In this document: piece by piece, positions 8,316 through 22,357 of the stretch
How positions within the stretch are numbered: position 1 is the first letter of the stretch
How the letters are laid out: each line of letters begins with the position of its first letter
DNA from: a virus
Length of the DNA stretch: 27,738 nt
IMG/VR virus record: IMGVR_UViG_3300042515_000093
Span: 1 to 27,738 of that record
Direction: 5' to 3' (one strand)
Notes under the pieces: model-generated
Seen by the model: the letters and a program-made list of their open reading frames with translations, nothing else
The model's database searches: none
What the model was told of the DNA's origin: nothing
Translations under genes and position numbers: made by a program

Positions 8316-11300
8316 ATGAGCTACACCGTTGCTTTGCCTGATGGACGAACCGTTGAGTTTCCAGATAGCGTATCCAAAGAAAAAGCAGCGGAGATCCTTC
8401 GGGAACAACTTGGCATAGGCGGTTCCCCAGAAGAAGGTTTTGTACCTGCCGTCAAGGCAGGTATCTCTGGTTTAAAAAGCTCCGCTGCCGCCCTTGCTGG
8501 CCGCACAGGCGCTATGGATGCCGAACGTGCCAAGCAGGTCATGGCCGAGGAAGAAGCGTACCAAAGACGTACCTTCAAACCCACCGAGAAAGGCTGGACA
8601 GAAGCGCCAGTCACCAAATTCACAGAACTCCTTGGTGGCTCTTTGCCGTACATTGCAGCTCCTTTGGCTGCCGGTGCAGCCGCCACGATTGGCGGAGCTC
8701 CTGCCCTTGCCGCTACTGGCTTGGGTGCGTTGGTGTCAGGCGGTCAATTTACCGGTCAGTTCCTAAAGCGCCAGACTGAGGAAGGCACGCCACTTGAGCA
8801 AACAAACTTAGCTGCAGCCGCTGGCGCCGGCACAGTTGCAGGCGCACTTGATTTGCTGTCTTTCAAAATGTTCCCTGCTATTCGGGGTATTTTTGGTGCG
8901 GCGGGTAAAGAAATATCCCAAGATGCGGCTGAACAGATTGCCAAGCAAGGCATGACCAAAATGCTGGGCGACTACGCCAAAGCAACAGGCAAAGCAATTG
9001 GTGCAGAAAGTACTACCGAAGTAGCGCAGCAGTTCCTTGAGCGTTTGCAAGCCGGGTTGCAGCTTACGGACGACCAAGCCCGTGACGAGTACTGGGATAG
9101 TTTGATTGGCGGCGCGGTCTTGGGTGGCGCACTTGCCCCTGCTGGCCGTTACATTGAGCGCGGGAGAATTAGAACTGCTCAGGCAGAAGAAGCCCGTGCA
9201 GATCAAGCCAAACAAGTGCAGGCGCAAGAGGCTGAGAAGAAGCGCTTAGAAGCCGAGAAAGCTGAGTACCGCAAAACCCCCGAGTACTTAGACGAGATCC
9301 AGACCCGCTACGCTGACTTGCAAAAGCAAGAAGCTGACTTGCTGGCGCGTATTAAGGGCAAACCCGCTGAAGGCGATTTGGCCGCCGTAGCAGACAAACA
9401 AGAAGCCCGTACACAACTTAGAGAGCTACGCAAGACTGACGAGTACACAGGCACAGTTGAAGAGTATCGTCAAGCTAAGAAAGCGATTGATGAGCGTGCC
9501 AAAGAAACAACGGACAAAGCTGCGATTGCAGAAGCGGCCAAAGTGCCCGGCGCGCAGATGGATTTGTTTGGTGCGTTGCCTGAAGCCAAGGATCAGTCAC
9601 CAGTAGGTCAGTTGCGCACACTTGACACCCAGATCAAAGGTCTTGACGCACAGCTTGCCGAAGCTAAAAAGACAGGCGATCAAGCACAGATTCAAGCGCT
9701 TACCAACCAGCAGTTTGACCTGCAAAAGCAGTTCCAATCTATGGCCCCAACACCGACAAGCTATGCGGCTATGCGGGATACGGTCACCAAACAGATTGAA
9801 AACTTGCGCACCAAGTTGCAAGCGGCCACAAGTACTGACGACATGGAGCGCCTTGTCAACAGTATTAAACAGAACAAAGAAGCATTAACTCAGCTTGATG
9901 AACTAAAACCTTTTGTTGCTGCAGCCCCCAAGCAAACGGATGTTGCGTCCCGTGACGTTGAGATCAAAGACCTGCGCAAGAAAGTTGCACGTTACCAAGA
10001 GCTGGGCGACGACGAAGCGATTGCTAAGTTGTTACCGCGCCTAAAAGAACTGGAAGCCGTGCCCACATTGATGGAAGGCGATCAGTTCCGCAACGTTCCA
10101 ACAGACGACTTGTTTGCCGCTGAGATTGATGCTGGCGCAAAAGAAGCCCGTGAAACACGGGAGAGCGTTGAAGCTGAGATTGAAAAGCTTCGCGTGATGG
10201 CTGAAAGAGTTAAAACTACTTCGCCTGTTGCGCAAGCGTACCGCGATAGAGAACTTGGAAGAGCGCGTGCACTGCTGTCTTTGTTTGAAGAAAGTGAGCA
10301 GGATTGGGAAAAGCTTAAAAAAGATCCCGCCAACACTGAGTTCCGCGAAGACCGCGACAAGCTTAAAGCCACGCTTGAGAAAGACATCAAAGCGTTAGAA
10401 AAACGCGAAATCCCTAAAGATGCCGTACTTCCAACACGGGACACGTTTGAGCTTGGCGTTAAACGCAAAGCGTTGAAGAATTTAAATCGCCGTATGGAAG
10501 CGGCGGATCGCTTCAAAGACACGACCCCACTGGCGCAGAACATCATTGATGAGCGCACGGACGAGAACGTCTCGGCGTTGCTTGACTACTATTTGCCCAA
10601 GCTGACTCCTGCACAGGAAGGTTTTGATAAGCAAAACGACCGCGCCGCAATGGCTAGAGAGGTCAAAGAGCTGCGTGCCAAAGTACATGACGGTTTAATT
10701 GAAATTTACGACGCTGTCAAAATTAAAGACCTTGACGCTGTTCGTAACAACACTAGCAAGTTTCTGTTTAACTCAGATCGTCTGGTTAACCTTAATCGCA
10801 TTTTAAATAATGGCAAAGCATTAGAAGCGGAAGCCAAACTAGGTTTGCGTGAGCAATTGCTCACAGTAACAGACGACCTTAGAAAAACAGTTGAGAACCT
10901 AACACGTTCAAAAGCTGGGCTGCGCAAGTTAGACAAAGAAATTAAAGAAATTGGTCAGCCCACTTCCCCTGAGCAAGCAGAATCTTTGGGGGCAATGGAG
11001 AAGCGCAGAAATACGCTGGCGCTAGAAGTTAAAAAGCTGGAAGCAAAAACCGGTTGGGAAGACAAAGCCGACGCAGTAATTGACCGCTACAGCAGTGTTA
11101 TTCCCGAAGACCGTGAAGTCTCTAAAGCAGGTAAACAGCTTCCAATTGAGCGTGTTGAAGGGCGTGCTACCAGAATCGACGAAATTGTTCGTGAGTTGCG
11201 CCTTGTAAACGAAAAGGTGCAGAAGGCTGGCCGCCCAACAGACGAAGCTAAGATGGCTGCATTGGCGGAACTTAAAGACCGCCGTAAAGACCTTGGCAAC

Positions 11301-14300
11301 GAACTCAAAAAGTTAAGAGCTAGCGTGCCCTCAATTGAGGAAGCAAACAAGCTGGCAGGGGAATCCGTAGAGACAACGCCAGCCCAAGCACCCGATCTGT
11401 TTGGCATGTCTTCCAAAATGGAAAAGGTAACACGCGCCGCATTAGGCGACGTGTTGGCAAAACTGCGGGGGCTTTATGCCCAACGAACCAAACTTGTTGC
11501 GCAAGTAGAGAAACGCGGGCGTCTGCCTTCAACAGAAGGCGAACAAAAGCTTGTCGAGCTTTTTGACAAAGGACCGTCTGGCCAGATCAGAAGTATTAAC
11601 GCCAAGATACGGGAGTTAGAAGGTACCCGCGACGCACTGCAAAAACGTAGTGCTCGTGAATACCAGCAGTATCAGGAAGCGGCGCGTCAACCTGTTGTTG
11701 AGCCCGATCAGTTGGCTGAAATGCAACAGCAGCTTGGCAACATTGAGCGCCAGCTAAAAGGGCTGACTGTTCAATCCGGTGCCGGCAACATCCGCGCACA
11801 GTTGGAAAAAGCCCGTGACGACCTCAAGGCAAAGATTGCCGCTGGCACGCAAGAGGAAGAGATTGCACCCGCAGGCAAACAAAAAGAGTTGCCCGGCGTT
11901 CAGCCCCAGCGCCTTGCGCCCACACTGCGTGAGATTACGCCTGAAGAGTTGACCGAGGCTCGTACTGCGTTTGTGGCGGCAGAGACTAAGGTTGAAGAGC
12001 TGAAGAAAGCTGTACGCAATACAGAAGCAGTGCAAGAGAACCCACAGTACTTTAAGGAAGTGGCGCAAAGATTTAGAGACGAAGCCAAGGCTTTTAGGGA
12101 AGAGTTTGCCCAGACGCCTGACAACTTCCTTTTGCAAAAGCTTGAGTCTGACGCCAAATCACGCGAACAAAACGCACGCTACTTTGAAATGCTGGCAACG
12201 CTGTCGGAAGAAGGCCGTGCTGATTTACAAGCCGTTCAAAAAGAACTGACGCAAGCGCAAAAAGATTTGCCAAAGGCAGAAGCCGCATTCCGTGACTTAG
12301 AGCGCCGCCAGCGTATGCAACAGCAACAGCAAGCGGCTGTGACTGGCGCTGCTCCCGGACAGGTTGAAGCTGAGCGCATTAAAGCTGGGGAGTCTCGTGA
12401 GTTCCGTTCGCCAACAGGCAAGGCGCTTACTAAGCCTAAGAGAGCTGAAAGCTGGGACATTAAAAAAGAATCTGTCGCGCCCGTGGCCAAAGTGCCAGAA
12501 GTTGTTAAAGCACAGAAGGCGCTGTCCAGAGCAACAGAGTTAGCTCGTATGTCGAGCAGAGAGCTGACTACCGCTAGAGGTAAGTTGGCTGAGTCTGGCG
12601 TTACGCAAGAAATTAGACAACAGCAACAAGTCATACAGGAGCTTGAGCCGCTTGTTAAAGGCGCGTTCTCTGAAGACAACGTCAAGGCTATTGACGACGA
12701 GTTGGCAAAAATTGATGCGATATTGCAGGCGCGGGGATCTGATAAACAGAAACAGCCGTCTCCTGTAATTGCCAAGATGAAAGGGCCGTTGCCAAAAGAC
12801 TACGCAGCTTCTGTCGATTTTGCTGAGAAAGACGCCCGTAGCGAATATATGGCGGCCAAGAAGCTGAGCGACGCTTCTCAAAACGCATACGAGACTGCAC
12901 GCAAAGCAATTGACGACTTGCCTTCTACTGCTTCAGGCCTAGAGTTTGGCCGGTTAGATAGCGCTATGACTCGCGCTTCTAGTGCTACTGACAAGCTGCT
13001 ACCTAAGACACAAGCTGCTGAGCTGGCTTACTTGGCCGCACGTCGAGACAATCTGACTTTGAACAAGTTGATGGGGCAGGACTTGCGTGAAGCGTTTGTA
13101 AACACAAGCGCTCGTTTGGCTAAAGCTTTGGACAAAGAGTCGCCGCTTGTCAAACAAATTGAAGAAGCAAAAGCTACAGCCGCTAAAGCTGAAAAAGCAC
13201 GCGAAGAAGCGGAAGCCAAAGCCCGTGAGGAAGAGCGCAAAATACAGGCTGAAAGAAATGCCGATCTGGTAGAGAAACAGAAGGCGTTGGACGCGGCCAA
13301 GGCAGAGAAAGAACGCCTTGAGAAAGCCACATCTGGCGCTGGCTACGAGAGACGCCGCTTTACACGGGACACATCATCCCCCGAGATGACCGCCGAGCTT
13401 AACCGCCTCAAACGTGCCTTGGCTACGGCTGACACAAACTTGGGTAAAGCCAAGGAAAAGAACAACGCTGCAGACATCAAGAAGTACCAAGACGAGTACA
13501 ACCAGCTTGAGTCTAATATCGACACCCTGTACGCAGCAGCGCCTATTGTTGAGCGTGATCTGGAGCAGGGGGCTGGCCCACAGCCAGACGTTGCTGAAGG
13601 TATGCGTCTGCCTTCCCGTAAAGAAGGCCCTGTTGTTCGCAACATGACGGGCGCTAAGCGCGTGCGTCAATCGGGTGTGACTAAGCTTCGTGCAGATGGT
13701 CTGTCCCAAGAAGCTGCTAACGCAGTTCATTTGTTTACAGTCAAGGCTCGTTTGGATGGCGCTACAGAAGCCAGCCGTGCCAAGTTGGAGACAGCGTACG
13801 CAGAAGCTACCGAAGGTTTGACTGAAGAGCAAGTTGCCGCGCAGTTGGCTGAAGGTGAGCGTCTGTTGGGTCAAGGCCCGACGATTGAAATTATTGCCGC
13901 TCGTGAGCGCTTCCGTCAGGCTTTGATTGAAGTGGATAAAGCCCAAAAAGCTTTTGACGAAGCCAAGACACCTGCCACTAAAGAGTTGGCGCAAGACGCC
14001 CTCGATCTTGCAAACCAGCAAAGCGATTCCGCAGAGACCGCATACAAAAACGCTCGTGATGTTCGTGCGTCTAAGGCACTCAAAGGCGGAGCGCAAGCAG
14101 AAGTCGAAGCCGCAATCGATGCCGCTACTGCCAAGCAGGAAGCGGCCACACTGCCAGAGATTGACGAAGAAGGCCCGATCCAAGGTGCTGCAACGCAGTA
14201 CACCGAGATGGAGCAGGCACAGTTATCTGATGCGGCCAAAGAAGCGCTTGCCGATGGACGTTTGCTTGACGCTGTAAACGATGTGGCTGAGAACGGCCAG

Positions 14301-17300
14301 ACAGACTTTATTCGTCAGAACGCCAAGAACGTGGTCAACATGTTGCTTCGCACCAAGGTTGTGATCGATCCCGACTTGGTCGATGGTTTGGGCAACCCTG
14401 TGCCAGCGTTCTATGACAACGTGACAAACACGGTTAAGTTCCGTCCCGGAGAGCAAACAGAAGAGAACTTGATCCACGAGGTTACCCACGCCGCATCACT
14501 GCGCGGTTTGGTGATGCCTGCCAGCGATCTGACCAAGGAACAGCTTGCGGCGCGTAACGAGTTGAATGCCATGTTCAACCAACTGAAGAAAGACAAGGCG
14601 CTGGTAAACGAGTATGGCTTGACCAACGTTGCCGAGTTTGCGTCTGAGGTACAGTCTAACAAGGACTTCCGTGACCGCATCAACCAAAAGCCTTGGTTTG
14701 GCGGCAACATGCTGTCTCGTTTCTTCCAAGCGTTGTTGCGTTTGATCGGCTTTAAGACCGGCCAAGTTACCACCGATGTGGCTACCAAGAACATCGAGGC
14801 GCTGTACATGCCTTCGCAGAGGTTCCAGATGGTTGAGTCGCTCAACACTGCGTCTGTGTTTCGTACCAAAGCGCCAGCAACTAGTTCAGTGATTGTTGGC
14901 CAAGAAGCTGGCAGACTTAAGACGCTTAAAGAAAACTTGTTTGGCTTGGGCGGTCGCGTACAGTTAGTTGATAAACTGGCGGCGGCAGATGCCGCTATTG
15001 TGGCCGGTGAAAGCGCAGGTAAGCTGTCCTCTACTGAAGCGTTCCAAGCCCAGTACTTCATGCGCTTGGCTGACAACACTACGCAAACCGCTGGGCAGTT
15101 CATCACGCACGGCCCCGTGTCAATCGTGGCAGACAAAACTGCGTTAGGCACTGAGTACCGCTACCAATCATCCACAGGCGCTAACCTTGTTCAGATGACT
15201 GAGCACGTAGATGATGCCGCTAAAGCTGGCTTGGGTGAGGATGCCGAGCGCATCCTGACAGTTCAGATTGCTGGTGAGCGTGCGGAAGCTACGCCTAACG
15301 GCTGGGCGCGGTTACTGTCCTCTGATCCTGCGGCGGCTAAGGCTGAGTACTTGCGTGACAAGGCTACGCTTGCGGCTAACCCCGAAGCCAAGAAGAGCAT
15401 TGATGCTGCCAAGGCGGTGTACAAAGAGTACAACAACGGCCTCATAGACTTTATTGTCCAGTGCGGGTTTATCACCAAGCAAGAAGGCGCTCGTCTGAAG
15501 AAGACGCCGTTTATCCCGTTCTATCGTATTGAGAACAACGAGGTCAAGCTGTTCACCGACAAGGAGAGCAGCATCCGTATTGGCAACATCAAAGAGAACC
15601 CAGACTTGCAACGCATGTTGGGCGATGAGAAAACCATTTTGCCAATCCTGACCAGCGCTGTGCAGAACACGTTCATGTTGTCCCGTGCCGGTCTGAGAAA
15701 CAACGCTACACATAAGACAGCCGACGCGCTGTACAAGGCGGGGTTTGCATCCAAGATCGGCAAGGGAAGCGGCCCAACCGGAACCGATGTGGTTCGTTAC
15801 AAGGTTGACGGCGTCGATTACTTTGCTGTTATTGACACAGACACGTTTGGTATCCCTGCACATCTGATTGTCAAAGGCATGGAAGGTATCAAAACCACCA
15901 TCCCCGCGATTGTGCAGATGATGGGCATACCGGCTGACTGGGTACGTAAGTTTGTGACCCGTAGCCCTGCCTACGCTATTCGTCAGTTGATCCGTGATCC
16001 AGTTAACGCTGCGATTGTTGGTGGTGTGGATGGCGTGCCTGTGGTTAATGCTTTGAAGCAATTGGCTAAGATGCGTGCTGGCCGTAGCCCTGCCGAAGAA
16101 GCGCTGATGCGTGGTCTGGCTATCAGTAGCAACGTCTACACTGGCGATGAGAAGGACATGCAGAAGTTCTTGCAAGACATCGGCACAGGTCGCGGCAAGT
16201 GGGATAAGATGCTGGGTATGCTGGACACTGTGGCGCTTCAGGCAGATGCGGCTACCCGCGCTACCATCTACGAAGATTCGCTGAAGAAAGGCTTTACCGA
16301 AGCGCAGGCGCAGTTCCGTGCGTTTGAGTCTCAGAACTTTAGCCGTCGTGGTTTGTCGCCAAGCATCCAGATGCTGAGCACTATGGTTCCGTTCTTTAAC
16401 GCACAGATTCAGGGCTTGGATGTCTTGTATCGTTCGTTCAAAGGCACAACACCTTTTGCAGAGCGTCTGGAGATTCAGCGCAAGATCAAGGCGCGTGGAC
16501 TTATGTTGATGGCCGGAACCTTGGCGTATGCCTTGATGATGGAAGACGATGAAGACTACCGCAAGCTACCGCCCGAAGTTAAATACGGCAACTGGTTTGT
16601 GCGCATTCCAAACGTCAAAGACCCGCTGAAGATTCCTATCCCTTACGAGGTGGGTATCTTGTTCAAGGCGTTGCCCGAAGCCATTTTGGACGTAGCTCGG
16701 CGCGATACCAAGGCCAAAGAAGCCATTAAAGGTTTGGGCATGTTGCTCTGGCAGTCCACCCCGGGCGTTGTACCTGTGGCTGGCAAGCCGGTCATCGAGG
16801 CATCGATTGGCGCTACTCCATACGGACCGATTGAGTCGGCAAGGGAGAAGCAGTTGCCAGCGGCTATGCGCTACCGCGAAGAAACGACCGAAGTGGCCAA
16901 AGCTTTGGGCTCGTACACCGGTGCTGTTGGCGTGTCGCCCCTGATGATTGAGCACTTCGTGCGTAGCTACACCAGCGCCTTGGGGCTGTCAGCGTTGCAC
17001 ATGCTAGATCCGGTCTTGCGCTCGTCGACAGAAGGCGAAAAAGCTTCTACGTCTGCAAGCAAGTTGCCGTTCATTGGCGGTTTGTTCCAGTCAACCGATG
17101 GGCGTTTCATCATCGATCGTGCGTACAACCGCATGGAAGAAGTTGTCCAAGCGCAGCAGGGCTACGAGGACTTAGCACGCCGAGGCAAGAAGGCTGAAGC
17201 CAAAGCATGGGCGCAGGAGTATGCGTCGCTGTTGGCGCAAGCCGACATGGCTGGAAACTTCAAGAAAACTATGGGGGAAATGTTCACCGATGAGCGTACG

Positions 17301-17423
17301 GTGCGGGCTGACTCAAGGCTGTCAACAGCCGAGAAGGACAAGCTGATCGCACGCATCAAAGCGGCGCAGAATCGAGAGGCCGAGGCTTTCTATCAGGCAA
17401 CCGAAAGAAGAAGACCCCAGTAA
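8316..17423 (+). CDS. Giant polyvalent virion/ejection protein with zincin-like and LPD38-like domains
   Basis: A single uninterrupted frame of 3035 codons, starting 3 nt after the previous stop. Residues 1-35 form a small N-terminal module (YTVALPDGRTVEFPD...AAEILREQLG) seen on phage internal proteins. Residues about 105-185 and 255-280 are Gly/Ala-rich hydrophobic segments able to interact with membrane. About 285-1900 is almost continuous charged coiled coil rich in Lys, Glu, Ala and Gln. A metallopeptidase-like domain (about 1960-2190) carries H2054-E-V-T-H2058, with E2107/E2111 in NVAEFASEVQ as candidate third zinc ligand. Residues 2200-3035 contain PFIPFYR, SQNFSRRGLSPS and PFFNAQIQG, the pattern of the LPD38 domain (large polyvalent protein-associated domain 38). 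Very large virion proteins of this kind occur in podophages such as Bcep22. The ejected-core role is inference. No lytic transglycosylase motif was recognised. Confidence 0.7.
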   Translation: MSYTVALPDGRTVEFPDSVSKEKAAEILREQLGIGGSPEEGFVPAVKAGISGLKSSAAALAGRTGAMDAERAKQVMAEEEAYQRRTFKPTEKGWTEAPVTKFTELLGGSLPYIAAPLAAGAAATIGGAPALAATGLGALVSGGQFTGQFLKRQTEEGTPLEQTNLAAAAGAGTVAGALDLLSFKMFPAIRGIFGAAGKEISQDAAEQIAKQGMTKMLGDYAKATGKAIGAESTTEVAQQFLERLQAGLQLTDDQARDEYWDSLIGGAVLGGALAPAGRYIERGRIRTAQAEEARADQAKQVQAQEAEKKRLEAEKAEYRKTPEYLDEIQTRYADLQKQEADLLARIKGKPAEGDLAAVADKQEARTQLRELRKTDEYTGTVEEYRQAKKAIDERAKETTDKAAIAEAAKVPGAQMDLFGALPEAKDQSPVGQLRTLDTQIKGLDAQLAEAKKTGDQAQIQALTNQQFDLQKQFQSMAPTPTSYAAMRDTVTKQIENLRTKLQAATSTDDMERLVNSIKQNKEALTQLDELKPFVAAAPKQTDVASRDVEIKDLRKKVARYQELGDDEAIAKLLPRLKELEAVPTLMEGDQFRNVPTDDLFAAEIDAGAKEARETRESVEAEIEKLRVMAERVKTTSPVAQAYRDRELGRARALLSLFEESEQDWEKLKKDPANTEFREDRDKLKATLEKDIKALEKREIPKDAVLPTRDTFELGVKRKALKNLNRRMEAADRFKDTTPLAQNIIDERTDENVSALLDYYLPKLTPAQEGFDKQNDRAAMAREVKELRAKVHDGLIEIYDAVKIKDLDAVRNNTSKFLFNSDRLVNLNRILNNGKALEAEAKLGLREQLLTVTDDLRKTVENLTRSKAGLRKLDKEIKEIGQPTSPEQAESLGAMEKRRNTLALEVKKLEAKTGWEDKADAVIDRYSSVIPEDREVSKAGKQLPIERVEGRATRIDEIVRELRLVNEKVQKAGRPTDEAKMAALAELKDRRKDLGNELKKLRASVPSIEEANKLAGESVETTPAQAPDLFGMSSKMEKVTRAALGDVLAKLRGLYAQRTKLVAQVEKRGRLPSTEGEQKLVELFDKGPSGQIRSINAKIRELEGTRDALQKRSAREYQQYQEAARQPVVEPDQLAEMQQQLGNIERQLKGLTVQSGAGNIRAQLEKARDDLKAKIAAGTQEEEIAPAGKQKELPGVQPQRLAPTLREITPEELTEARTAFVAAETKVEELKKAVRNTEAVQENPQYFKEVAQRFRDEAKAFREEFAQTPDNFLLQKLESDAKSREQNARYFEMLATLSEEGRADLQAVQKELTQAQKDLPKAEAAFRDLERRQRMQQQQQAAVTGAAPGQVEAERIKAGESREFRSPTGKALTKPKRAESWDIKKESVAPVAKVPEVVKAQKALSRATELARMSSRELTTARGKLAESGVTQEIRQQQQVIQELEPLVKGAFSEDNVKAIDDELAKIDAILQARGSDKQKQPSPVIAKMKGPLPKDYAASVDFAEKDARSEYMAAKKLSDASQNAYETARKAIDDLPSTASGLEFGRLDSAMTRASSATDKLLPKTQAAELAYLAARRDNLTLNKLMGQDLREAFVNTSARLAKALDKESPLVKQIEEAKATAAKAEKAREEAEAKAREEERKIQAERNADLVEKQKALDAAKAEKERLEKATSGAGYERRRFTRDTSSPEMTAELNRLKRALATADTNLGKAKEKNNAADIKKYQDEYNQLESNIDTLYAAAPIVERDLEQGAGPQPDVAEGMRLPSRKEGPVVRNMTGAKRVRQSGVTKLRADGLSQEAANAVHLFTVKARLDGATEASRAKLETAYAEATEGLTEEQVAAQLAEGERLLGQGPTIEIIAARERFRQALIEVDKAQKAFDEAKTPATKELAQDALDLANQQSDSAETAYKNARDVRASKALKGGAQAEVEAAIDAATAKQEAATLPEIDEEGPIQGAATQYTEMEQAQLSDAAKEALADGRLLDAVNDVAENGQTDFIRQNAKNVVNMLLRTKVVIDPDLVDGLGNPVPAFYDNVTNTVKFRPGEQTEENLIHEVTHAASLRGLVMPASDLTKEQLAARNELNAMFNQLKKDKALVNEYGLTNVAEFASEVQSNKDFRDRINQKPWFGGNMLSRFFQALLRLIGFKTGQVTTDVATKNIEALYMPSQRFQMVESLNTASVFRTKAPATSSVIVGQEAGRLKTLKENLFGLGGRVQLVDKLAAADAAIVAGESAGKLSSTEAFQAQYFMRLADNTTQTAGQFITHGPVSIVADKTALGTEYRYQSSTGANLVQMTEHVDDAAKAGLGEDAERILTVQIAGERAEATPNGWARLLSSDPAAAKAEYLRDKATLAANPEAKKSIDAAKAVYKEYNNGLIDFIVQCGFITKQEGARLKKTPFIPFYRIENNEVKLFTDKESSIRIGNIKENPDLQRMLGDEKTILPILTSAVQNTFMLSRAGLRNNATHKTADALYKAGFASKIGKGSGPTGTDVVRYKVDGVDYFAVIDTDTFGIPAHLIVKGMEGIKTTIPAIVQMMGIPADWVRKFVTRSPAYAIRQLIRDPVNAAIVGGVDGVPVVNALKQLAKMRAGRSPAEEALMRGLAISSNVYTGDEKDMQKFLQDIGTGRGKWDKMLGMLDTVALQADAATRATIYEDSLKKGFTEAQAQFRAFESQNFSRRGLSPSIQMLSTMVPFFNAQIQGLDVLYRSFKGTTPFAERLEIQRKIKARGLMLMAGTLAYALMMEDDEDYRKLPPEVKYGNWFVRIPNVKDPLKIPIPYEVGILFKALPEAILDVARRDTKAKEAIKGLGMLLWQSTPGVVPVAGKPVIEASIGATPYGPIESAREKQLPAAMRYREETTEVAKALGSYTGAVGVSPLMIEHFVRSYTSALGLSALHMLDPVLRSSTEGEKASTSASKLPFIGGLFQSTDGRFIIDRAYNRMEEVVQAQQGYEDLARRGKKAEAKAWAQEYASLLAQADMAGNFKKTMGEMFTDERTVRADSRLSTAEKDKLIARIKAAQNREAEAFYQATERRRPQ

Positions 17424-17586
17424 AGCCTTCGTAGATGCCCGTTTTAGCACGGGCATCTAGTACGCGGCAAAGGACTGCCTTGCGCAGCCCTAGTTCACGG
17501 ACGGCGTCCGTGTCGAGGCAGGGGATGAAGAACCCCTGCCCCCTTTCAATCGTCTCCCAAGGGAATCGGATTAAGGATTGTTTCAT
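17356..17586 (-). CDS. Small conserved-looking phage protein of unknown function bridging the convergent junction
   Basis: A leftward ORF of 76-77 codons from the ATG at 17586 (a GTG at 17613 would add nine residues). It overlaps the last 41 nt of the primase-helicase gene in another frame and runs antisense through the last 68 nt of the giant gene. The translation looks like a real compact protein: FPWETIERGQGFFIPCLDT, then AVRELGLRKAVLCRVLDARA, then TGIYEGFTGVFFFRLP. This GFF(I/V)PCLDT...AVRxxGL...GVxFxR layout is one I associate with short uncharacterised phage proteins, but I cannot name a family. GACGAAG precedes the ATG as a weak ribosome binding site. The three hairpins at 17432-17540 lie inside it. 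The alternative is a chance ORF read through a terminator region. Confidence 0.6.
   Translation of the reverse strand: MKQSLIRFPWETIERGQGFFIPCLDTDAVRELGLRKAVLCRVLDARAKTGIYEGFTGVFFFRLPDRKPRPLDSAPL
17432..17459. terminator. 11-bp perfect hairpin just after the giant gene; possible (bidirectional) terminator
   Basis: tagatgcccgt (17432-17442) pairs perfectly with acgggcatcta (17449-17459) around the loop tttagc. It begins 8 nt after the giant gene's stop, where a terminator is expected between convergent units. No T-run follows on either strand, so an intrinsic terminator is uncertain. It also lies inside the 77-codon leftward ORF. Confidence 0.4.
17496..17540. other. Two further GC-rich hairpins at the convergent junction
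   Basis: A 17-bp palindrome with one central base lies at 17496-17512 (cacggacg, g, cgtccgtg). An 8-bp stem follows: ggcagggg at 17517-17524 with cccctgcc at 17533-17540, loop atgaagaa. With the hairpin at 17432 this makes three stems in about 110 bp. Neither is followed by a clear T-run. Confidence 0.5.
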
Positions 17587-20440
17587 CGACTTCGTCCATC
17601 TTACGTCTGACACGCATGACTGTTACGCGCATGGGAGGGCCCTTGGTCTTGGCAGTCATGTTCTTCTTCAAATATTCGATTGGGAATTGATCCTCAAGCT
17701 GGCGCTTGAATGAAGCGTAACCGAAACTTGTAGAAGCGCAATAGGACTTTAGCAGTTGCTCTTCAATGAAGTAGTCCACGTAACCGGATGTCATGCCGTG
17801 CTCAACACGCCCAAGAATCTTGTTGCGCGTGATCGTCTGGTCAATGATCTGACCGCTACCGAGTTCGGCCAGCAAGCCGCCAGTGCTAGGACGCACAACG
17901 ACAAAGCTGCCATAACTCTCACGGGTGTACGCGTTCAGGATGTCTTCAGCAGTGCGGACACTGTTCTTCATACTGGCGCGCATAGTAGCCACAACTTTCT
18001 TAAAAGCGTTCAAGACAGGGCGCAGGGGGATCTCGACAATGCCTGCCGCCTTAAAAGCGTTGCGTGCTTGCACTGCGGTTCCGATGCCTGCCATCCAGAA
18101 GCGCTCATCGTTGGTTGCGTTGAACTCTGTGTACATGGCGGCAACCGACTCACGCACAGATGTAGGGAACTCATCAGCATGCTCCACCATGTACTCGACT
18201 AGCTTGTAGCCAGCCACGCCATAGTTGTGTTGCAGTGCCTTGATGATCTCAATCTCATGGGGTTCCCATGACAGCTCTTCTTCAAAGGTGAACTCAAGCA
18301 GACGGCGAAGCTCGCCCTCAGATGAGTGATCGCGGCCACCAGTCAGGTAGTCCACAACGTGGGTGTTAGATGACATCAAGCACACAGTCATCCATGTAGA
18401 CAAGTTCAAGCGCTCTTTGTTGGAGCCGGACTCCATACGCTCCTTGCCACGACCCTCGGTCATATCCAAGAGAAACTCAGGTAACCACTCGGGGGCGGCT
18501 CTGTTCTTGGCGGTGATCTCATCCGTGATAAGCGGATGGCTGTTGAGCAAGCCTAGGCGTTGCTGCATGGCGACAGGTGAAGTGCTCTTGCCTGTGCGGT
18601 AGTGAGTTGGGTGTCCCCAAACAGAAGCTGCGGCTTCAAGAGACAAAGTCTTACCCGTCCCCGACTCCGTGGATGCACAATGGTACGTCATCCCGTAGAT
18701 GCCTGTAAAGCGCATGAAGGGTGCGCCAGCACCGGCAAGGATTACGGCTATGTGCCCCCACATCTTCTTGGTAATCAACAAGTTCATGAAGTCACGCCAA
18801 GCCTCAAGTGTGCCCTTGGGTTCGGTGTTCACTGTGATGTTCTCCAGCCCCGGCATAGGAACCTTGACTGGTGGTTTGCCCTTGCTAAAGATGCGTCCTG
18901 CATACACGTACGTGTTGTCGATCTGCCATCCGTAGCTGTCGGGCACTTTGATTGCCGGCTTGTTTGTACTAGCTTCCTCTACGCAAGCCCTCACATATTC
19001 AAACAAGTTCTTGTCGTTGCCGTGGCCAAAAGAAGCCACGATGTTTTGACTAGCCAGCGCTTTAACTGTTTCGTCTTTGCTAACGACTGCCCTTTGCGGC
19101 ATAGTCACATTCACTGCACCTTCAGGCTTGAGCGCTATCATGTGCACTGTGTGATCCCCGTTGCTGTTGAGAATGTCAACAACAAACAGTTCGTATGGCA
19201 ACAGCATGACCTGCTTCTTGGCCTTGTTGCCTTCGTCATCTTCTACTGTGCGCTCCATGAACGTGCCGCCGTTGGCTCCATAGGAGTAGCCGCGTGGCGG
19301 TGTCGGGCGCATGACCTTGATGATTTCTTTCTCGGTGACTGTGCTCTCGCTTGAGAGTTTCACCTCGATCTCTTTCTCCTCGACCTCAACCGCCAACTCA
19401 CGACCTAGGATCAGTGGGTTGGTGATCTTGCCCCAATGCGTGCATGTTGGGCACACGCCGGGGTTCTCGGAGTCCATCTTGACGCAGGGGTATGGGCCTT
19501 TGATGCTTTGCAGCTTTTGGTTCATACGCTCTGGCTCGTAGGGATGCATCTTGCTCAGCCATACAGCCGCCTTGTTGCCATCCTCACAGACTTTTGTCCA
19601 TGACAGTAAGCCACGCCAGATCGGCTCCATGCCCTCTTCGGTTGCGTGTTCAACGTAATGCGCAAGTTGGTTGCAACCCCGCGCATTTTGCGTAGCCAGC
19701 CAAATTGGTTTGAACTTGGTTACGCTGTTCTCAAAGAGTTTGACACTGGTTGCAGAAGGGGCGGAAGCCGCAGATGGGCGTGTGCCTGCCAAGTCTAGCT
19801 TGGGCGTGTTGGTAGGCTCGTATAGTGAGCCAGTCAGTTTTTCCCTGAACAGGGCGGCCAACCCTTCGAAGCTGAACACATCGCCTTCAGTTAGTATGCG
19901 CACAGGGCGCGGCGTTGCGTACTTCTTCTTGAAGTTGGTGGTGTCAGGCACACGCAAGACACGGGCGGCATCAGCCGTCACTGTCATGTCGATAGCCAAA
20001 CCTTCCTGTTTGCACAGGCGTTTGAAGTTCTCAGCCACGGGCTTCCAAGTATCGACAGGCACGGCTTGTAGAAGTGGCCAGTAGCAGTGCAAACCGCCGC
20101 CAGAACCAACGACATAAGGTGTGCCTAGGGCATCCATGCCTGTGTTACTTAAAAACGCACTGAGCGCTTGCGCTGCGTCCTTCTTCGATGCATACCCATC
20201 CATGTCAATAAACAAGGATTTCACGTACCGAGCGTTGGCCGCAGTTCGGTTGTCTTCATCGCCAAAGGTAGCCAAGGCAAAGTAGATGTCAAACTTACTG
20301 TCGTGCCAACGCTTGATGTGCGCAGGTGCGTCTTCCAGAGTCGCCGTGAAAACGTGCTCTTTCTTTGTGAGTTCTGCTACGCAGTACCGACCAAATTCTG
20401 GCGGCGGCAGAACAACCGCTAAAAACTCAAGCGGAGTCAT
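17546..20440 (-). CDS. Primase-helicase fusion (AEP/PrimPol-like primase plus DUF927-like superfamily helicase)
   Basis: A 964-residue protein with AAGGA about 6 nt before its ATG. The N-terminal part (residues 1-200) has PrimPol-type archaeo-eukaryotic primase motifs: SLFIDMDGY with D79 and D81, GSGGGLHCYW with H118, and DAARVLRVPDTTNFK with R163 and K171. Cysteines 319, 330 and 333 (with H335) in PYPC...CPTCTHWG suggest a small zinc-binding linker. The C-terminal half is an ATPase with Walker A STESGTGKT (590-598) and a Walker B-like LITDE (637-641), together with SVWGHPTHYRTGKST, resembling DUF927/phage D5-type replicative helicases. The protein would unwind the fork and lay primers for the family A polymerase encoded upstream. 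It ends the main leftward operon, apart from the small ORF overlapping its 3' end. The primase and ATPase calls are strong; exact family assignment is not. Confidence 0.82.
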   Translation of the reverse strand: MTPLEFLAVVLPPPEFGRYCVAELTKKEHVFTATLEDAPAHIKRWHDSKFDIYFALATFGDEDNRTAANARYVKSLFIDMDGYASKKDAAQALSAFLSNTGMDALGTPYVVGSGGGLHCYWPLLQAVPVDTWKPVAENFKRLCKQEGLAIDMTVTADAARVLRVPDTTNFKKKYATPRPVRILTEGDVFSFEGLAALFREKLTGSLYEPTNTPKLDLAGTRPSAASAPSATSVKLFENSVTKFKPIWLATQNARGCNQLAHYVEHATEEGMEPIWRGLLSWTKVCEDGNKAAVWLSKMHPYEPERMNQKLQSIKGPYPCVKMDSENPGVCPTCTHWGKITNPLILGRELAVEVEEKEIEVKLSSESTVTEKEIIKVMRPTPPRGYSYGANGGTFMERTVEDDEGNKAKKQVMLLPYELFVVDILNSNGDHTVHMIALKPEGAVNVTMPQRAVVSKDETVKALASQNIVASFGHGNDKNLFEYVRACVEEASTNKPAIKVPDSYGWQIDNTYVYAGRIFSKGKPPVKVPMPGLENITVNTEPKGTLEAWRDFMNLLITKKMWGHIAVILAGAGAPFMRFTGIYGMTYHCASTESGTGKTLSLEAAASVWGHPTHYRTGKSTSPVAMQQRLGLLNSHPLITDEITAKNRAAPEWLPEFLLDMTEGRGKERMESGSNKERLNLSTWMTVCLMSSNTHVVDYLTGGRDHSSEGELRRLLEFTFEEELSWEPHEIEIIKALQHNYGVAGYKLVEYMVEHADEFPTSVRESVAAMYTEFNATNDERFWMAGIGTAVQARNAFKAAGIVEIPLRPVLNAFKKVVATMRASMKNSVRTAEDILNAYTRESYGSFVVVRPSTGGLLAELGSGQIIDQTITRNKILGRVEHGMTSGYVDYFIEEQLLKSYCASTSFGYASFKRQLEDQFPIEYLKKNMTAKTKGPPMRVTVMRVRRKMDEVDETILNPIPLGDD

Positions 20441-21955: not shown

Positions 21956-22357
21956 TTAAGTAGGTTTGCGTACAGAGATATCGAACTCAGATGTGGAGTT
22001 CAGGCCGGGCGGTACGACCCCGGGGTTTTCTTCTAAGAACTGTGACATGTTGGATTGCGCAATGCGCTTCTCCAAAAGCTCGACGGCCTCGTGTGCCAGT
22101 ACGAACTTCTTGAACTCATCCCAGTCCTGTGTGTAGTAGCGAGTCTTCACGGACATGACTGCCGTGCCCTCGGTAGTGCGAACTGATGTGACGCCCATCG
22201 CCTTCATCTGTTCCTTGATAGCGTTCTTGATCTCGTCCTGTTGCGCCTTGAGTACTTCAGTTTGCGTGTCGTACTCTTGGGTCAGTTCGGTCATCTTTGT
22301 GCGTAACTTGCGGTAAATTTTTACCAGCTTGTCTAGCGGTACTGCTTCTTCTTCCAT
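21956..22357 (-). CDS. Coiled-coil phage protein beside the SSB candidate (Gp157/Gam-like layout)
   Basis: A 133-residue protein with AGGAG six nt before its ATG and only 12 nt before the next gene. Residues 5-50 are a coiled coil (KLVKIYRKLRTKMTELTQEY, then LKAQQDEIKNAIKEQ). It is followed by a small beta element VTSVRTTEGTAVMSVKTRYY, then a helical segment DWDEFKKFVLAHEAVELLEK and the tail PPGLNSTSEFDISVRKPT. The coiled coil followed by a beta element and a short acidic C-terminal part recalls Siphovirus Gp157 and Gam-type proteins, which are encoded near phage recombination genes and can modulate host nucleases. That comparison is by layout only. Function unassigned. Confidence 0.65.
   Translation of the reverse strand: MEEEAVPLDKLVKIYRKLRTKMTELTQEYDTQTEVLKAQQDEIKNAIKEQMKAMGVTSVRTTEGTAVMSVKTRYYTQDWDEFKKFVLAHEAVELLEKRIAQSNMSQFLEENPGVVPPGLNSTSEFDISVRKPT

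Follow-up and report, generated by a model that had tools for sequence, protein, structure and literature searches.

A small gene overlapping a phage primase-helicase gene may also encode the 3'-end hairpins of a convergent junction

The locus and its small gene

We analyzed the junction between two converging transcription units in a viral sequence, IMG/VR record IMGVR_UViG_3300042515_000093 (positions 1 to 27,738; this whole 27,738-nucleotide (nt) stretch is referred to as the window). A leftward operon containing a primase-helicase gene meets here a giant gene of the opposite orientation, and a small open reading frame (ORF) on the leftward strand spans the junction (Table 1). An earlier note, made from the window's sequence alone, had proposed that the ORF 17356–17613 (−) is a gene with a protein-like product and that it ends the leftward operon. 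The ORF is present with the peptides quoted there and does overlap both neighbors, leaving 17424–17545 outside either of them. The gene stands, but its proposed extent does not: the start codon conserved among relatives is the ATG at 17586, for a protein of 76 residues, and the GTG at 17613 is an upstream alternative. The latter is not common to the relatives, because in L007–L017 a stop codon lies immediately 5' of the ATG. By itself the gene would be a modest gain in annotation. The more interesting feature, which goes beyond the earlier note, is that its codons carry a second code in the form of conserved hairpins.

Relatives of the small gene occur in hundreds of uncultivated phage contigs, with the same primase-helicase upstream and the same giant gene opposite. 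A pattern search of IMG/VR with the single protein gave 159 matches, 128 of them encoding a relative, which is well above what chance would produce; two alignment-based scans found relatives in 318 of 365 and 338 of 402 pattern matches; the best 80 loci of each scan were retained for analysis. Among 30 pattern matches in GTDB genomes there were no relatives. The clade set comprised 234 sequences (L001–L234, with many contigs included repeatedly with different flanks). Its core motif was found in 225, from which we selected 45 representatives (<88% identity, 44 of full length). The nine sequences without the motif were removed before counting; the seven that we inspected are homologues ending in FxLP. 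One divergent relative, L320 (IMGVR_UViG_3300027712_001081), has a small ORF that lacks the GQGFF motif, the PC motif and the hairpin H1 described below.

The position of the gene relative to the primase is highly conserved. In the window and in 79 of the 80 first-scan loci the stop of the upstream gene ends exactly 4 nt before the GQG codons and the register of the overlap is identical, the exception in both respects being L040. The primase stop is a TGA at a fixed place in 220 of the 225 motif-bearing sequences. On the other side, 42 of 44 representatives have, next to the small ORF, a convergent gene homologous to the giant gene in its C-terminal part, and the two without it have flanks of only 90 and 149 nt. 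In a sample of 80 loci selected by primase, which has many contigs in common with the earlier scans, the small ORF was found in 74, the remaining six contigs stopping at the primase.

Selection was estimated over the 40 non-overlapping codons for 18 of the 63 distinct relatives. The ratio of nonsynonymous to synonymous substitution rates (dN/dS) was 0.06–0.41 in 17 of the 18 comparisons; the remaining one (L001) offers a single synonymous difference and nothing else. Two of the checks that the earlier note had suggested, for homologues and for selection on codons, gave a positive answer, and these comparisons identify the small ORF as a real gene whose protein is under purifying selection. Since no Shine–Dalgarno match (by a simple motif list) was found at 36 of the 45 small-gene starts, translational coupling to the primase is probable. 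Programmed frameshifting or stop-codon read-through from the primase into the small ORF, which the location of the hairpin H1 close behind the primase stop might suggest, is disfavored, both by the variable codon before the stop and by the small gene's own start codon, the position of which varies little among almost all relatives (L018 is without one).

Hairpins written in the codons

The messenger RNA (mRNA) of the window's small ORF folds with a z-score of −3.94 relative to dinucleotide shuffles on the sense strand and −2.05 on the antisense strand. Two perfect hairpins, H1 and H2, lie in the stretch between the two neighboring genes (Table 1); H2 is the longest perfect hairpin of the window and is found in only part of the clade. 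When both the protein and codon usage were held fixed, the cores of the representatives gave a mean folding z-score of −2.50, with 30 of 44 below −2 (antisense, −1.71 and 15 of 44). Five control windows in the neighboring primase gene gave −0.04 to −0.46, with 1–4 of 44 below −2 in each. The number of perfect stems of at least 8 pairs tells the same story: there are 44 of them in the 45 cores (34 cores have at least one), compared to 1.4 expected from sampling with the same protein and the same codon usage.

By region, the folding signal was significant for H1 in 33 of 44 representatives, for the H1–H2 interval in 15 and for the tail in none. On average, 7.57 of the 8 H1 pairs are formed, against 5.80 expected. 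Codon choice follows the stem closely. The two H1 glycines use the rare GGG in 37 and 39 of 44 sequences (background 14%), and stem codons are CAG in 44 of 44 (background 62%) and CCC in 38 of 44 (background 35%), whereas the two loop Phe codons differ little from background usage (z 2.4 and 1.4), and so does Gly33. The pairing also covaries: across H1 and H2, two-sided pairing changes fill 36 cells, compared to 19.2 expected in shuffles, and the observed value is also above that of every slid register. In H2, some protein-altering changes leave the stem in place (for example, DARAKTGI to DAHASVGI or DARAHPCI). In the H1–H2 interval, clade-specific hairpins of 10–13 pairs (G·U allowed) occur at other codons in the groups L072, L194, L225; L122, L161, L171; and L202, L228. 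Within H1, G·U pairs outnumber A·C pairs on the sense strand by 17 to 4, a ratio that follows in part from the choice of codon positions able to vary.

A second coding frame was considered as the source of the synonymous constraint and rejected, as the other two sense frames contain stops in 42 and 44 of the 44 representatives, and the three antisense frames in 39, 39 and 44. Strong codon bias at codons 9–13 and from about codon 55 on falls where the small gene overlaps its two neighbors. Codons 34, 35, 42 and 43, which are outside the explained stretches, are biased as well (z 5–8). Taken at the level of sequence comparison, the codons of the small gene do carry a second conserved message, with selection acting on the hairpins. 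A further hairpin of the small gene, at 17496–17512, was rejected as a family feature because it is absent in relatives (read by eye).

Table 1. Genes, overlaps and hairpins at the convergent junction of the window
Feature	Position	Strand	Remarks
Small gene, 76 residues	17356..17586	−	ATG start; closes the leftward operon
Primase-helicase gene, 964 residues	17546..20440	−	DUF927; phrog_25314, phrog_8841
Giant convergent gene, 3035 residues	8316..17423	+	LPD38 domain
Overlap of small gene with primase-helicase 3' end, 41 nt	17546..17586	−	Different frame; counted from the ATG
Final 68 nt of giant LPD38 gene	17356..17423	+	Antisense to the small gene's 3' end
H1, 8-bp (base pair) perfect stem, 8-nt loop	17517..17540	−	Codes GQGFFIPCL; starts 5 nt past the primase stop
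H2, 11-bp perfect stem	17432..17459	−	Codes LDARAKTGIY; lies 8 nt past the stop of the giant gene
7-bp hairpin near codons 25–31	17496..17512	−	Not conserved
Hairpin AGGGCTGC[GCAAG]GCAGTCCT, codons 32–39	17471..17491	−	Same hairpin among representatives only in L011, L019, L100

The junction in distant relatives

We also examined 80 loci of a wider family, with primases that share about 30% identity with the primase of Pseudomonas phage Rollin. A profile built from the 45 clade cores revealed a homologue (E < 0.01) immediately behind the primase in 65 of them. The small ORF of this wide family typically has about 64 residues, and in 63 of the 65 loci its start lies 8–47 nt ahead of the primase stop. 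Among the 15 loci without a profile match, eight are on contigs that stop no more than 103 nt from the primase stop (one of these, L251, has a truncated homologue), four have a homologue recognizable by eye (L309, L314, L315 and L316) and three show none by eye (L252, L274 and L290). Phages Rollin and RHph_TM3_14A have the primase followed by different small genes. In 53 of 55 evaluable wide-family loci the long ORF that follows has the convergent orientation, with a length of 1343–1416 residues in the 30 listed ones. Only two of the 65 loci matched the giant gene of the window in its C-terminal part and one in the remainder; therefore, these long ORFs are mostly not demonstrated homologues of the giant gene. 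The small protein itself, judging by profile similarity and gene order, belongs to an unnamed family coupled to the primase-helicase, into which the window gene fits by both position and profile.

The two sets of junctions have a markedly different organization. The comparison covered 43 of the 45 clade representatives and 51 wide-family ORFs, the stretch considered being longer in the wide family owing to the spacer. In the wide family, a spacer of 31–237 nt (median 84) separates the small ORF from the convergent gene, and a U-tract terminator is present on the small ORF's strand in 48 of 51 junctions and on the opposite strand in none, although a few of these terminators (L260, L273) look weak on inspection. 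Junctions of the window's clade have overlapping genes (median −38), and a U-tract terminator was found in only 3 of 43 of them on either strand, two of these on the strand of the small gene. The primase-selected sample contained one in 55. As a control, a nearly identical terminator pattern matched none of 225 primase segments. By this comparison the junction of the clade is without both spacer and U-tract, unlike that of the wide family. As to the direction of the change, we infer that the spacer was lost rather than gained. Since the U-tract in the wide family is found solely on the primase strand (e.g. L281, L265, L312), the convergent long gene there may also rely on a hairpin or on collision.

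Exceptions within the clade are informative in this respect. When 115 distinct cores were ranked by H1 stability, the lowest two turned out to be the sisters L179 and L174 (85%). Both have a longer hairpin ahead of H1, which runs into a U-tract provided by the Phe-Phe codons and sits where H1 would be. In sequence terms, the exchange of H1 for a U-tract hairpin is clear in this one lineage only. L317, from a separate lineage, is a possible second case; it has a similar fold in a 66-nt stretch, but there the U-run is paired with sequence further downstream, and the fold changes when a shorter stretch is taken. L060, the third core with a U-tract match, has a good H1, and the candidate seen in L060/L353 is weak, with 6 bp.

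Two named phages that have the primase provide separate observations, both made by eye. In Rhizobium phage RHph_TM3_14A, which has the primase and not the small gene, a hairpin with flanking A and T runs is located at the matching junction. In Pseudomonas phage Rollin, the 3' end of a small coding sequence contains a perfect 11-bp hairpin without a U-tract (L235:7211-7244), and this coding sequence overlaps a convergent gene by 4 nt. This is possibly an independent instance of a hairpin placed in coding sequence where two genes converge.

The small protein and neighboring genes

Searches of PHROGs, Pfam and NCBIfam assigned no family to the window protein, and five wide-family members compared with PHROGs and Pfam gave a best E-value of only 0.11. 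Of 36 clade members, 20 touched phrog_7597 (best E 0.024) and 19 phrog_10287 (best E 0.017). The window protein had one match in INPHARED at E 0.9 (L070 and L281 had none) and one match in PDB by sequence at E 1.4; the single Rfam match (E 0.32) was far under the cut-off. The earlier note suggested that automated callers could drop the ORF, but it has not escaped annotation everywhere: a 64-residue uncharacterized homologue, 54% identical to the small protein, is already present in BFVD/UniProt.

The AlphaFold2 model of the small protein has a beta-alpha-beta-beta layout (predicted local distance difference test score 89). Among weak structural matches in PDB, R3H nucleic-acid-binding domains recur (best Z 4.7, 60 residues aligned, root mean square deviation 3.5), and the Foldseek matches are likewise weak (E 0.19 or worse). 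The layout resembles that of R3H domains of KhpB/EloR and Smubp-2, but such Z scores are common for small folds. R3H domains are characterized by the R-x3-H motif, which is absent from the window protein, as it contains no His. The model is thus at most a hint of R3H kinship.

As for the neighbors, the giant gene 8316–17423 (+) has a single Pfam match, LPD38, and no significant PHROG match (best E 0.045). Further upstream in the replication operon, a 133-residue gene at 21956–22357 (−) matches phrog_13900, 'minor head protein', with E 3.9e-25, and weakly the Mu Gam-like phrog_253 (E 0.0011). Considering its position in the replication operon, the 'minor head protein' label looks doubtful.

Possible roles of the hairpins

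The explanation that we favor, and whose chances we put at about even, is that a primase-coupled small gene also encodes the 3'-end or termination hairpins of the convergent junction; termination is the step that we infer. The last gene of the leftward replication operon would be the small overlapping one, whose translation is probably coupled to that of the primase, and the task of ending or insulating the converging transcripts would have been handed from a spacer terminator to hairpins in the codons of this gene. H1 would act just past the primase stop, and H2 or the clade-specific hairpins toward the stop of the giant gene. Although without a U-tract, the hairpins could pause RNA polymerase at the junction, fix the meeting point of the converging polymerases and shield the 3' ends of the mRNAs.

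Parts of this scheme have counterparts in known systems. The wide-family terminators share the synteny (primase, small ORF, convergent long ORF), but there a spacer and a primase-strand U-tract are present, and the window has neither. In E. coli, according to PMC13082048, hairpins of nascent transcripts position head-on RNA polymerase collisions at convergent gene pairs. The bidirectional convergent terminators described there are similar in that the genes converge and the hairpin lies between or near both stop codons. They differ in that the window hairpins sit inside a conserved protein gene and are crossed by ribosomes. The I-shaped terminators of mycobacteria, as presented in PMC5335608, which itself disputes their action, are likewise G+C-rich hairpins without a U-tract; they are located downstream of a gene within an operon, whereas the window hairpins are coding and lie at a convergent junction. 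Our literature search found no mention of terminators or hairpins inside this small gene.

Several observations weigh against the favored explanation. H1 and H2 of the window are G+C-rich hairpins with no U-tract after them, and so are not canonical intrinsic terminators; the only U-rich candidate listed elsewhere in the ORF (17430–17410) is weak, with 9 pairs of which 3 are G-C. H1 is located within the gene, so that RNA polymerase must traverse it for the protein to be made. Shuffling of synonymous codons in 64 distinct ORFs gave z-scores below −2 in 46 cases for the sense and in 49 for the antisense strand, i.e. the strands are similar, although over the 44 cores the sense strand gave the stronger signal. 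The H2 region was significant in only 20 of 44 representatives and therefore is not universal, and all the hairpin and codon statistics ignore kinship, not being tree-aware. Finally, 12 of 57 wide-family members, against 1.1 expected, have a hairpin at the H1 site, and 11 of these 12 retain the U-tract terminator. H1 may therefore predate the loss of the terminator and have had another role.

The last observation favors the idea that the hairpins act on the mRNA by slowing ribosomes, by tuning translation of the overlapping primase and small genes or by protecting against nucleases, an idea that we rate below the favored explanation but give considerable weight. The fixed distance of H1 from the primase stop, the shortage of Shine–Dalgarno matches, consistent with coupling, and the prevalence of G·U over A·C within H1 on the sense strand all fit such a role. 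What it leaves unexplained is why the other hairpins of the chain should be strong at junctions lacking the U-tract terminator and weak at those that have one.

It is very unlikely that the palindromes are DNA elements serving replication, through priming or through protein binding to single or double strands. The adjoining gene is a primase-helicase, and the palindromes look alike on both strands, which overall folding does not tell apart. However, the sense strand of H1 tolerates G·T over A·C (with the same reservation about free codon positions), and the hairpins of the H1–H2 interval vary in place and sequence among clades, unlike a fixed recognition site. Even less credible is regulation of the operon by the small protein binding its own hairpins. 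The small beta-alpha-beta-beta model and the recurrent R3H domains might suggest this, but all structural matches are weak (none with Z of at least 5), the defining motif is missing, and the wide-family members possess the protein but few hairpins. Finally, it is also very unlikely that the gene is an ordinary overlapping one whose hairpins arose as a by-product of biased codon usage, base composition (GC content), kinship among the sequences or a peptide of palindromic coding. In favor of this reading, the 12 perfect hairpins with stems of at least 7 pairs in the whole window match a Markov model (7–18), codons outside hairpins are strongly biased too and kinship is ignored by the statistics. 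Against it, same-protein sampling produces almost no such stems, the primase windows of the same phages are without signal, pairing covaries and the H2 amino acids change while the stem stays.

Returning to hairpins that end the converging transcripts, an unlikely extension is a dual code: a conserved protein gene would have taken over the stop signal of the convergent junction, with the result that H1 is opened by the ribosomes on the small gene, which gate termination in this way. If true, both the small protein and the antisense read-through opposite the giant gene would depend on translation keeping pace with RNA polymerase, and translation of the primase would be tied to the meeting of the two operons.

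Our results add an overlooked gene beside the replication primase in hundreds of uncultivated phage contigs. A chain of coding hairpins where relatives keep an intergenic terminator is unusual and testable. The family represents a natural comparative experiment, with a U-tract terminator in the spacer on one side and hairpins in the codons of overlapping operons on the other, and it allows a direct test of whether U-tract-free hairpins at a convergent junction do the work of a terminator.
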